Source: Prevotellaceae bacterium
GTDB lineage: Bacteria; Bacteroidota; Bacteroidia; Bacteroidales; UBA932
Length of the DNA stretch: 34,348 nucleotides
Direction: 5' to 3'
Assembly (NCBI GenBank): GCA_031276235.1
Contig: JAISNL010000169.1
Location: 1-34,348 of the forward strand
This document shows, piece after piece, positions 5,380 through 9,431 of the stretch. Position numbers and translations under genes: made by a program. The notes beneath the pieces are model-generated. The model was not told where the DNA came from. It did no database searches and was given only the letters and a program-made list of their open reading frames with translations. Numbering within the stretch: position 1 is the stretch's first letter; every line of letters begins with the position of its first letter.

Positions 5380-6264
5380 ATGGATATGAAAATACTTGTT
5401 ACCGGCGCCGAAGGGCAATTAGGCAGTGAAATTCAAAAAATTTCGGCAAAAAATCATTCGTTTCAATACATTTTTACCGATTATGCCGAACTTGATATAA
5501 CCGATATAAATTCGGTGAAAAAATTTTTTGCCCTTCAGCGTCCCGATTTTTTGATAAATTGCGCTGCATATACTGCCGTAGATAAAGCAGAATCGGATTA
5601 TGAAAAAGCATTGCTTATTAATGCTGATGCGGTTGCCAATTTGGCAGATGCCTGCAAAATTTGCGATACTGTATTTTTCCATATTTCTACCGATTATGTT
5701 TTTGATGGCAAAAAACCTTCTGCCTATTTTGAAAACGACCAAACCAATCCTGTTTCAGCATACGGAAAAACAAAATTATACGGAGAGCAAAATGCTTTGA
5801 AATATCACAAATCTGTTATTATCCGAACATCGTGGCTATATTCATCTTTCGGCAACAATTTTGTGAAAACGATGTTGCGATTAGGCGCGGAACGCCAAAC
5901 AGTAAAAGTTGTTGCCGACCAGACAGGCTCGCCTACATACGCCGAAGATTTGGCTAATGCAATATTGAAAATTACAGATAAAATTGTCGAAAATCCTGCA
6001 AATCTGAAATCGGGAATTTATCATTTTTCAAATGAGGGACAATGTTCGTGGTGCGATTTTGCAAAAGAAATTATGATGATGTCGGGCAATAAAAACTGCC
6101 GTGTAGAACCAGTTTCAACATCCGAATATCCAACTCCAGCACAGCGCCCGCAATACAGTTTGCTGAACAAAGAGAAAATAAAAGTTGATTACGATGTAGA
6201 TGTCCCTCACTGGAAAACAGGTTTGCAAAAATGCATTAATATACTTAAACAAAAAAACTGCTGA
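5380..6264 (+). CDS. rfbD: dTDP-4-dehydrorhamnose reductase
   Basis: 294 aa SDR protein: ILVTGAEGQLGSEI, INCAAYTAVDKAE, STDYVFDG, YGKTKLYGE, RTSWLYSSFGNNFVKTM. Confidence 0.93.
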   Translation: MDMKILVTGAEGQLGSEIQKISAKNHSFQYIFTDYAELDITDINSVKKFFALQRPDFLINCAAYTAVDKAESDYEKALLINADAVANLADACKICDTVFFHISTDYVFDGKKPSAYFENDQTNPVSAYGKTKLYGEQNALKYHKSVIIRTSWLYSSFGNNFVKTMLRLGAERQTVKVVADQTGSPTYAEDLANAILKITDKIVENPANLKSGIYHFSNEGQCSWCDFAKEIMMMSGNKNCRVEPVSTSEYPTPAQRPQYSLLNKEKIKVDYDVDVPHWKTGLQKCINILKQKNC

Positions 6265-6307
6265 TGTACTGTGGAATCATATAATTATATTAAAGTATGG
6301 CATTATC

Positions 6308-6337
6308 ATATTTTGCGGTGCAAAGACAGAATAAAAT
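6308..6337 (+). repeat. Imperfect direct repeat flanking the MTase gene, left copy
   Basis: atattttgcggtgcaaagacagaataaaat versus aatatttcggcgcaaagatagaataaaaa at 7841..7869 (two substitutions and one indel in the core). Confidence 0.55.
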
Positions 6338-6421
6338 AGAGGAACTGGGGCTGAATCAACAGATAAAAACAATACTGCGAGCGAAAAATTCCTCGCTTTT
6401 TGTGGCAAAATGGCAGTTTTG

Positions 6422-6480
6422 ACAGTTGACAGTTAACAGTTGACAGTTTTTATCATTCTCAACTGTTAACTGTCAACTGT
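6422..6480. repeat. Perfect 22-bp inverted repeat built from ACAGTTR heptamers; possible bidirectional terminator
   Basis: ACAGTTGACAGTTAACAGTTGA (6422-6443) and TCAACTGTTAACTGTCAACTGT (6459-6480), 15-nt loop, between convergent genes. Confidence 0.85.
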
Positions 6481-7750
6481 TTCTCTGCACCAATACTCTC
6501 CTAAATTTTTCTTTACCATTGACAACAGGTATATACGATGTATTTTCTTCAATAAGTTTATATCCCTTTTCCAATATACCGTTTAATATTGGACGGGCTG
6601 ATACGGCAAAAGGTTTTTCATAGTCATTCGGAATATAACAGTTATCTACTAACAATATTTTCAAATCGTCATATTGTTTATGCTTTTCGGGTATTTCTTT
6701 TAATGAAACTATTTTTAATTGCTTATATTTTGGTCTGTCTTTTACAGGAATATTTGTAAACCAATAACCCGCCGCTCTGTTAAGTTCTTTCTTGGGCGTT
6801 AAAAACCAGTCTATTTCATTATATCCCGCCCATACTTTATTATCCTTAAAATATGGAATATATGCTTTTGTAACAGGATTTGCAATATTAGAAATAATGA
6901 GAAACTGCTTTCCGCTTTCAACAGTAATTTTCCAATAATCTATCGCTCTTGAGAACGGCGGGTTTGTGCATACTATATCCGCTTCTTCTTTAAGTATTTT
7001 AAGCGATAGCGGGTCATCAAAACTGCCTGTATAGCCTTTTGGAAAATCTTTAAATTCCTTGAAGCCGTCTTTGGTAAATACATAGCCTTTCGTGCCTTGA
7101 TTGAATAAGTCCACAGCGCCGCTGTAGTGTGTGCATATCAACTTTTTCAATTCAAGTTCTTTGAAATTACGCAAAAAATATAGCGCAAACGCCGATGTAT
7201 TCTTTTCATTGTTATCAACCGCGTCATCGCAGTTGCAGAACACCGTTTTATCCTTCCAAATCTTTTTATCATACATCGACAGTTCCTTTTCAACGTCTTC
7301 GTATCTGGTATAAAACTCGTCATTATTTGCTTTTTGCGCCTTTTGCAATACGTCTCTTTGGGATAATCCTCTTTCTTCAAGAGACGGCGTTGTTTTCTTT
7401 ACTATTTTTATTATCTCTTTTTTATCTTCGGTTTTAATAAATATTTCTTTAACAAACAGCGGATGGCTTTTTATAAATGTTACATACTGCTTAAACAGTT
7501 CGGAATTGAAAAAATATATTTCTCTGCTTTTTTCTTCTCGAAGGGCGCTGTATTTTATTTTTATATCATTTTCAACTTCTGTCATATTTTTTACTTCACA
7601 GGCAAATAAATACCGGTAAACGTTTTCTTTGGATTTGCCTGTCATATTGTTGTATTCTTTTAGCCTTCTTTCCAAATCGTTGGTTTTGCCGATTTTGCAT
7701 TTTGAAGGCTCTAAAGAGGCTTGAACTGTGTAAATGTATTGTTTTGCCAT
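6473..7750 (-). CDS. Fusion protein: N-terminal GIY-YIG-like (T5orf172/MUG113) domain + EcoRI-type adenine-specific DNA methyltransferase
   Basis: N-terminus YIYTVQASLEPSKCKIGKTNDLERRLKEYN...EVENDIKIKYS resembles the T5orf172 GIY-YIG fold. From about aa 135: NNDEFYTRYEDVEKEL...VDLFNQGTKGYVF...DIVCTNPPFSRAIDYW, an amino-MTase with NPPF motif as in EcoRI methylases. Confidence 0.8.
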   Translation of the reverse strand: MAKQYIYTVQASLEPSKCKIGKTNDLERRLKEYNNMTGKSKENVYRYLFACEVKNMTEVENDIKIKYSALREEKSREIYFFNSELFKQYVTFIKSHPLFVKEIFIKTEDKKEIIKIVKKTTPSLEERGLSQRDVLQKAQKANNDEFYTRYEDVEKELSMYDKKIWKDKTVFCNCDDAVDNNEKNTSAFALYFLRNFKELELKKLICTHYSGAVDLFNQGTKGYVFTKDGFKEFKDFPKGYTGSFDDPLSLKILKEEADIVCTNPPFSRAIDYWKITVESGKQFLIISNIANPVTKAYIPYFKDNKVWAGYNEIDWFLTPKKELNRAAGYWFTNIPVKDRPKYKQLKIVSLKEIPEKHKQYDDLKILLVDNCYIPNDYEKPFAVSARPILNGILEKGYKLIEENTSYIPVVNGKEKFRRVLVQRNS

Positions 7751-7840: not shown

Positions 7841-7869
7841 AATATTTCGGCGCAAAGATAGAATAAAAA
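7841..7869 (+). repeat. Imperfect direct repeat flanking the MTase gene, right copy
   Basis: See 6308..6337; also contains TATCTTTG on the minus strand (7853-7860). Confidence 0.55.
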
Positions 7870-8042
7870 ACTTTATAATTTTTCATCTGGCGGCAGGGCT
7901 GCTTTCTTTATATCGTTATTATTATCCATTAATTCTAAATTTTTCATTTTATTTACATCTTCGCATTTGAGATTCCCAATCATTTTTTTACATGTCGCCT
8001 AATTTTACTAATTTTACAGCCTGATATTATTAATAATTGCAA

Positions 8043-9431
8043 ATGACAGTTGATTCATACACCATAACAGACTTGCGGAAATCGTCAAACGACAGTTTCG
8101 GATTTTTCTATTTGCTCAACAATCTTGATTTGAAATCTTCGCTGTCGAAACGTTATATATATTCGCAAAATTTCATAACCGACAGGCATGAACTCGAATA
8201 CGAACTGAATAAAATAGAAGAAACAGTATCATTGCTAGACAAGCCTCAACACGACAAAATATTTTTGGCTGTTGAAAACAGGCTTTCGCAAGTTTCGGAT
8301 ATCGGCGGCACATTGCAGAATCTCGCAAATTCGATAATGTTGAGCGATGTGGAACTGTTCGAAATAAAAAAGTTTGCAATAATTGCCGATGATATAAAGC
8401 AACTTTTGAACGAATTGCATTTGGTTGATTTGCCCGATTTGACAGACGTCATAAATATACTCGACCCCGAAAAAATGCGAGTAGCAACATTCTATATTTA
8501 TGACGCCTATTCAGATAAACTTGCCGCTTTGCGAAAATTGCTGAAAGGAAAAAACGCAAATCAGTCAGCCGAATTATATCAGCAAATAATAGACCTCGAA
8601 GACGAAATACGCAGGCAACTTTGTTTGAAATTAAAGATGTATGCTCAGCCTTTGAATATCGCATTATCGCAGGTTGCATATATTGACATACTTTTGGCAA
8701 AAGCAAAACAGGCAAAAAATGAACATTTCTGCAAACCTTTTATTGCTGACAAAATCACGTCGTACAAGGCGCTGTTTAATCCGCAATTGAAAGATTCGCT
8801 GCACAGACAGGGCAAAACGTATCAACCTTTGGATATTTTGTTCGGACAATATCCGACTTTGATTACAGGCATAAACATGGGCGGCAAAACCGCGCTTCTC
8901 AAAACGCTTGCACTTGCGCAGTATCTTTGTCAGTTCGGATTTTATGTGCCTGCAACAGAAGCAAAAATTACTCTTGTTGACAAAATAATGATTTGCATAA
9001 CAGACGAACAAAATCATTTGCAGGGCTTGTCATCGTTTGCTGCAGAAATGAAAAACGTTAACAAAATATTATCCGAAATTACGGCAAATAAATCTTTGCT
9101 GGCGCTGATAGACGAACTTGCACGAACCACAAATCCTGCCGAAGGCAGCGCCATTGTAAGCGCCATGCTTGATATTCTTTTCGAACGCAAAATTTGCGCT
9201 TTTATTACCACGCACTACGATAACATTACTTCAGACTGCCGCCGCCTGCGCGTGCGCGGATTGACAGATACCGATGAAACCGTTGATGAAAAAAACATAG
9301 ACCGCCATATAGATTATTCGCTTGTTGAAGAAACGGCAACCGACGTTCCGCACGAAGCGTTGCGCATAGCAGAAATACTCGGAGTGAACGAAGATTTGAT
9401 AAGGCGGGCAAAACATAAAATGAAGAAATAA
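8043..9431 (+). CDS. MutS-family ATPase (MutS-like protein of lysine fermentation loci)
   Basis: MutS C-terminal ATPase: GINMGGKTALLKTLALAQ (Walker A), LALIDELARTTNPAEGSAI (Walker B), FITTHYDN; ends 26 bp before kamD. Confidence 0.85.
   Translation: MTVDSYTITDLRKSSNDSFGFFYLLNNLDLKSSLSKRYIYSQNFITDRHELEYELNKIEETVSLLDKPQHDKIFLAVENRLSQVSDIGGTLQNLANSIMLSDVELFEIKKFAIIADDIKQLLNELHLVDLPDLTDVINILDPEKMRVATFYIYDAYSDKLAALRKLLKGKNANQSAELYQQIIDLEDEIRRQLCLKLKMYAQPLNIALSQVAYIDILLAKAKQAKNEHFCKPFIADKITSYKALFNPQLKDSLHRQGKTYQPLDILFGQYPTLITGINMGGKTALLKTLALAQYLCQFGFYVPATEAKITLVDKIMICITDEQNHLQGLSSFAAEMKNVNKILSEITANKSLLALIDELARTTNPAEGSAIVSAMLDILFERKICAFITTHYDNITSDCRRLRVRGLTDTDETVDEKNIDRHIDYSLVEETATDVPHEALRIAEILGVNEDLIRRAKHKMKK

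Follow-up and report, generated by a model that had tools for sequence, protein, structure and literature searches.

A minus-strand gene in a 34,348-nucleotide contig from a Prevotellaceae bacterium (the whole contig is called the window below) encodes a predicted GIY-YIG-type nuclease and an adenine methyltransferase in a single chain. With a probability of about 0.6, we take its product to be a minimal single-chain restriction-modification (R-M) enzyme, Type IIC-like, behaving as a selfish mobile gene. Judged by profile matches, nuclease and methyltransferase domains share one chain, as in Type IIC enzymes, across many full-length loci. The fast-spreading family is apparently undescribed: open-licence papers yielded no description of the fusion architecture, whether as a plain orphan methyltransferase or otherwise.

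Gene and neighbourhood. The open reading frame (ORF) starts with ATG, ends with TGA and encodes 425 amino acids (Table 1). A first-pass annotation made from the DNA alone had proposed this ORF, read it as a T5orf172/GIY-YIG module joined to an EcoRI-type m6A methyltransferase, and placed it between rfbD and a MutS-like gene. All of this stands: the strand is now set as minus, both domains exceed curated Pfam cut-offs, and both neighbours are confirmed in the window. The annotation had also seen no separate restriction enzyme. None lies beside the gene in the window, and neither a separate nuclease gene nor a constant neighbour was found at the related loci examined. The domain and residue matches are far beyond chance. 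An Rfam search of the window locus returned no RNA family.

Table 1. Features of the fusion gene and its surroundings, in window coordinates
Feature	Position	Strand	Evidence
Whole gene, T5orf172(GIY-YIG)-EcoRI-type methyltransferase fusion, 425 aa	6473..7750	-	ORF and Pfam; 32 related loci
N-terminal predicted GIY-YIG/T5orf172 nuclease domain, aa 1-105	7436..7750	-	Pfam, AF2 (pLDDT 85), Foldseek Slx1, alignment
Inter-domain linker, aa 106-129	7364..7435	-	Low model confidence, pLDDT <50 at 106-129
Predicted EcoRI-type adenine methyltransferase domain, aa 130-425	6476..7363	-	PF13651, E = 6.9e-40
NPPF catalytic motif of methyltransferase, aa 263-266	6953..6964	-	Invariant, 42/42 copies
Y7, predicted first catalytic Tyr (GIY half-motif)	7730..7732	-	Tyr in 37/37 copies reaching the position
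K19, Lys replacing the YIG Tyr (= K73 of R.Hpy188I)	7694..7696	-	37/37; PMC2630997
R28-R29, predicted catalytic Arg; register fits R29	7664..7669	-	36/38 and 37/38
Y33, predicted helix Tyr (= Y88 of R.Hpy188I)	7652..7654	-	40/40
E60, predicted metal-binding Glu	7571..7573	-	40/40
Leader, 58 bp including ATGGCAAAAC, with second occurrence on contig C14 of own genome	7741..7798	-	95% identity
3' trailer, part of the genome's dispersed repeat	6380..6451	-	88% identity
Weak direct repeat, downstream flank, promoter-like	6308..6336	.	E = 3.8e-4 against other flank
Weak direct repeat, upstream flank, promoter-like	7842..7868	.	Weak; pairs with downstream flank
Neighbour RmlD/rfbD	5380-6264	+	
Neighbour MutS-domain-V protein	8037-9431	+	

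Nuclease domain. The N-terminal domain matches the Pfam model T5orf172 (PF10544) over aa 4–87 (E = 6.5e-10, 39.9 bits, cut-off 20) and MUG113 above its curated cut-off (E = 2.2e-7). The generic GIY-YIG model PF01541 reaches 17.5 bits, under its cut-off of 22.6, which counts against the single-chain R-M reading. An AF2 model of the domain, with elements E4–11, E18–23, H26–36, E45–53 and H56–66, is predicted to contain the core beta-beta-alpha-beta-alpha fold of the GIY-YIG superfamily. Foldseek pairs this model with the Slx1 GIY-YIG nuclease at probability 1.00, yet with weak E-values (best 8.4e-3), another point against the single-chain R-M reading; for the full-length model (pLDDT 76.8) the hits are Slx1 and Rossmann methyltransferases. 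A sequence search of PDB chains with the N-terminal profile gave nothing meaningful.

The candidate active site was followed across 42 copies (counts in Table 1). Arg deviants that were checked in the alignment retain the other Arg (R28 only in L005, R29 only in L170). The catalytic set of GIY-YIG/T5orf172 domains, namely Tyr, Tyr or Lys, Arg and Glu, is present as predicted residues that align with the known positions. The Tyr, Arg and Glu picked out by the first-pass annotation are in place as Y7, R28/R29 and E60, with the correction that the second GIY-YIG Tyr is a Lys, K19. The active restriction enzyme R.Hpy188I, whose predicted active site is Y63, K73, R84, Y88 and E149, shows this same Lys-for-Tyr replacement (PMC2630997), and the spacing of K19, R29 and Y33 nearly equals that of their counterparts there. 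T5orf172 domains are nucleases, among them Odn of phage ICP1, for which a catalytic Glu has been inferred (PMC8263062, PMC10448857). Nei-Gojobori dN/dS of the nuclease domain is 0.04–0.21 in informative close pairs, as in the methyltransferase domain, and the domain is therefore maintained. The conserved active site and purifying selection, together with the multi-copy spread across phyla, the metG insertion and the locus-specific flanking duplications described below, give strong comparative support to two ideas that had been suggested for this ORF, a single-chain R-M protein and a homing-type selfish gene.

Methyltransferase domain. EcoRI_methylase (PF13651) matches from aa 135 with 137.8 bits (cut-off 26.4) and PADLOC reports MTase_II (2.6e-40); profile match and NPPF motif together predict an EcoRI-type adenine methyltransferase. 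Homologous domains of the M.EcoRI family, solitary or in R-M systems, are found in 67 plasmid and 10 phage records at <60% identity, but the matches listed start near aa 122–135 and, unlike the fusion, have no N-terminal domain. Four relatives without the fusion (G001, G002, G006 and G045; L092–L097) hold distant EcoRI-type methyltransferase sequences (41–49%), also with no N-terminal domain, and one of these sequences has an internal stop. Palindrome avoidance, at GAATTC or other words, was uninformative as a footprint of activity. GAATTC occurs at 0.31 of expectation in the window host versus 0.32 in a gene-less relative, so the hosts are not separated; the same words are depleted in gene-less relatives, and in several carriers no palindromic 4-mer is avoided. 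This lack of a carrier-specific footprint counts against the single-chain R-M reading. Extreme avoidance of several palindromes was seen in genome G066 (loci L205–L224, 400 kb): GATC 13 versus 782 expected, AGCT 17 versus 663, GGCC 22 versus 804, CATG 13 versus 382, and CTCGAG and CTGCAG 0 versus about 25 each.

Distribution. The fusion defines a coherent family (about 63–82% identity) in about 40 genomes from about eight phyla; most carriers are gut anaerobes. Scanning a single genome from each species gave 32 loci, mostly full length and 65–79% identical to the window protein, in Bacteroidota, Spirochaetota, Planctomycetota, Fibrobacterota, Elusimicrobiota, Campylobacterota, Pseudomonadota and Margulisbacteria; further searches raised the total to about 40 genomes. 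Many of the carriers are metagenome bins that, going by isolate names, we take to come from termite guts. One carrier is recorded as an isolate (Brachyspira catarrhinii strain Z12), and binning error therefore cannot account for all of the spread. Presence is patchy: a full-length copy occurs in 2 of the 11 genomes of the host's genus. The other copy in that genus (G004) is 66% identical to the window's, while three copies from another genus are closer (70–75%). The family tree interleaves phyla, and the AU test rejects a single clade for Spirochaetota (p = 0.005) and, marginally, one for Bacteroidota (p = 0.045). The gene has been transferred between phyla.

Origin from a phage, raised in the first-pass annotation as a phage-derived modification enzyme, was rejected: there is no full-length relative among 50,697 phage records, and viral contigs contain one (L034), at the edge of an apparent prophage. 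On that contig the family copy adjoins an apparent tyrosine integrase, annotated by eye (6196–7260 and 8001–9317). Plasmid carriage was rejected as well, with no full-length relative in 72,556 records and no match to the N-terminal domain.

Copy number and decay. Eleven copies in G066 group together in the tree, and several of them have a leader in common up to about 100 bp but share no downstream sequence. One pair of G066 copies (L172) is mosaic: the middle is nearly identical (dS 0.27), while the N-terminal and presumed recognition parts have diverged (dS 1.1–1.3), which points to recombination between copies. L026 has three tandem copies, the third without the nuclease domain, and in G209 a methyltransferase-only copy comes after a full one. 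Truncated copies without the nuclease but with the methyltransferase retained (the third of L026, L177, L255 and L257) fit R-M decay. In L248 (G167:C40), an insertion of about 100 bp breaks the methyltransferase part but leaves the nuclease part open. This copy counts against a single-chain R-M enzyme, since a cell could tolerate it only if cutting depends on the recognition domain that both activities share.

Insertion sites. The flanks of the loci are mutually unrelated, and no neighbour gene recurs as a possible partner; an apparent neighbour cluster in seven genomes was rejected in that role, since it includes antisense reading frames of the family gene itself. Gaps to the neighbouring genes are often just 13–100 bp, and most copies examined lie between ordinary genes. 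In G004, the family gene is inside metG. The N-terminal part of metG ends in ...KMLNI-stop and is followed by the insert and then by the C-terminal domain of MetRS, which has an ATG of its own. The insert holds the family gene, an orphan 108-aa ORF and no transposase. The orphan ORF, between the family gene and the 3' part of metG (L136, G004:C97, 3106–3429), has no relatives in the 60 other genomes searched. In nine other genomes of the genus, the window host included, metG is intact as a single ORF of 680–693 aa, giving one occupied site versus nine empty ones. G004 is a draft genome in which a chimeric assembly is conceivable; both metG halves lie on one contig, in order and orientation. 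Another copy, in G066 (L173), is within a MobF/TrwC-like relaxase gene that is partly missing (identified by eye).

Direct repeats of 53 and 57 bp (91–93%) flank the copies at L015 and L167, and in the DNA searched they have strong matches only at those two flanks. At E <= 1e-6, flanking repeats were found at three copies (L015, L167 and L034) versus 1 of 587 control placements; those of L034 are possibly dispersed repeats and are not relied on. The repeats of L015 and L167 resemble the long, variable target duplication described for mobile R-M genes (PMC3874152). Most copies, the metG insertion included, have no such repeat, so that either multiple routes of movement or repeat decay is likely. 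The best explanation is that the gene moves, between and within genomes, as a unit of about 1.3–1.7 kb with no recognisable transposase. Other DNA methyltransferase-like ORFs with a DPPY motif (by eye) lie near copies in four genomes (L172, L003, L028 and L180), two of them in L172; these places are possibly defence islands.

In the window's own genome (G000), about 120 bp at C14:10713–10829 (L124) consist of the leader with ATGGCAAAAC fused directly to the trailer, with the gene body absent. This junction is most simply read as what remains of a second copy that was lost. Positions 6422–6483 of the window and many other places in the host genome carry a dispersed repeat of TTGACAGTTAACAGTTGACAG units in both orientations, and a hairpin element, GCGAGGAATTCCTCGC..CAAAATGGCAGTTTTGACAG, recurs at several other intergenic sites. 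No empty site was demonstrable for the window locus, as every relative examined shows rearrangement around both rfbD and the MutS gene.

Known systems. The fusion resembles Type IIC/IIG enzymes (MmeI, Eco57I, TaqII) in having a predicted nuclease and an adenine methyltransferase in one chain, with the nuclease N-terminal. Type IIC enzymes mostly use PD-(D/E)XK nucleases, a majority trait and not an obligatory one; some work without and others with an extra methyltransferase (PMC4081073), which parallels the methyltransferase-only copies beside full ones in L026 and G209. In contrast to the PD-(D/E)XK and mostly gamma-class pairing of Type IIC/IIG, the fusion combines GIY-YIG with an EcoRI-type domain, and because it departs from this majority form we call it Type IIC-like rather than a Type IIC enzyme. 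Type IIC/IIG enzymes can be very large, with TaqII at 1105 aa (PMC5587805) versus 425 aa here. The GIY-YIG restriction enzymes in a Type II review are Eco29kI, Cfr42I and Hpy188I (PMC4081073). They too have a GIY-YIG nuclease, and Hpy188I also has the Lys for the YIG Tyr and a near-equal Arg and Tyr register, but their nuclease and methyltransferase are separate proteins. The engineered RM.Eco29kI has the domain order of the fusion, N-terminal GIY-YIG and C-terminal methyltransferase in one chain; it is functional, restricts phage 100-fold and is classed as Type IIC (PMC3039593). RM.Eco29kI is man-made and has a different methyltransferase, whereas the fusion is natural, smaller, mobile and multi-copy. 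Natural fusions of GIY-YIG with an N-methyltransferase are also described, in excerpts of a 2006 survey, for five Lactobacillales proteins with a COG4123 methyltransferase, predicted only and proposed to be R-M-like (PMC1564403). They differ in having the methyltransferase first and an Slx1-like nuclease, and those excerpts do not describe mobility.

Proposed mechanism. The EcoRI-type domain would recognise a short DNA sequence and methylate adenine there, protecting the cell's own DNA. The GIY-YIG domain, acting through the same recognition domain, would cut DNA with unmethylated sites: phages, plasmids, or the chromosome once the gene is lost. No second gene would be needed, because the nuclease would borrow the recognition domain of the methyltransferase. 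The gene would land between genes and rarely inside them. We infer the cutting, its dependence on missing methylation, the specificity shared by the domains and the self-driven spread. Several lines of evidence favour a single-chain R-M enzyme: the fusion as such, a predicted active site that is conserved, the lack of a partner, the tandem methyltransferase-only copies, decay in which the methyltransferase outlasts the nuclease, and the working precedent of RM.Eco29kI.

We think it rather unlikely that the gene is a mobile orphan methyltransferase, regulatory or of the 'moron' kind, in which T5orf172 merely binds DNA or is catalytically silent. The methyltransferase is open in copies lacking the N-terminal domain (the third of L026, L177 and L257), the second Tyr is a Lys, and no restriction footprint is specific to carriers. 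However, most copies retain the domain, with all predicted catalytic residues kept and under purifying selection equal to that of the methyltransferase, and R.Hpy188I shows that cutting is possible with a Lys in this place (PMC2630997). A modification-dependent or strand-nicking defence enzyme, for example one cutting foreign-modified DNA and using methylation as a self mark, seems very unlikely: Pfam shows no modification-reader domain, and there is no partner helicase or constant neighbour. It would accord with the N-terminal match to the PADLOC candidate PDC-S57 (5.1e-8) and with T5orf172/GIY-YIG genes that accompany the methyltransferase DnmA in a defence-like cluster (PMC9973331).

The homing-type selfish gene entertained in the first-pass annotation shares the strong comparative support set out above, including the multi-copy spread across phyla, the metG insertion and the locus-specific flanking duplications. 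Here GIY-YIG, aimed by the DNA-binding part of the methyltransferase, would break insertion sites and the gene would be copied into them, while the methyltransferase would limit self-damage. Phage T5orf172 proteins, of the same nuclease subfamily, are largely homing-type, proliferate within lineages, exchange domains and occur inside or close to essential genes (PMC10448857), a pattern like that of the 11 copies and the mosaic pair in G066 and the metG and relaxase insertions; the split metG resembles the 'genes in pieces' known from free-standing homing endonucleases (PMC2988022). The single essential-gene insertion is also homing-like and counts against the single-chain R-M reading. But homing returns to one site, and the copies here are at unrelated, non-homologous sites; methylation of the recognition site is no known part of homing; and the fusion has no long DNA-binding region of the zinc-finger or NUMOD type. 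The phage genes and ICP1 Odn are phage-borne, aimed by zinc-finger or RepA_N domains and, unlike the fusion, have no methyltransferase. On balance, we judge homing proper unlikely. More tentatively, the gene may be a transposase-free hybrid of homing and R-M, whose own GIY-YIG opens the breaks for gene copying and whose own methyltransferase immunises the invaded genome, so that copies would build up, to as many as 11, and the gene would pass between phyla in gut communities.

If active, the single-chain R-M enzyme proposed here would be about the smallest natural one and, as far as we have found, the first natural GIY-YIG enzyme shown to work in single-chain form. Its recognition domain, already varied by nature in many paralogues, would then be useful for engineering specificities. 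Autonomous movement of R-M genes is a long-standing question, and this family, with many copies per genome, transfer across about eight phyla, an essential-gene insertion, flanking duplications and no transposase, offers a clean test case for R-M genes that move themselves.
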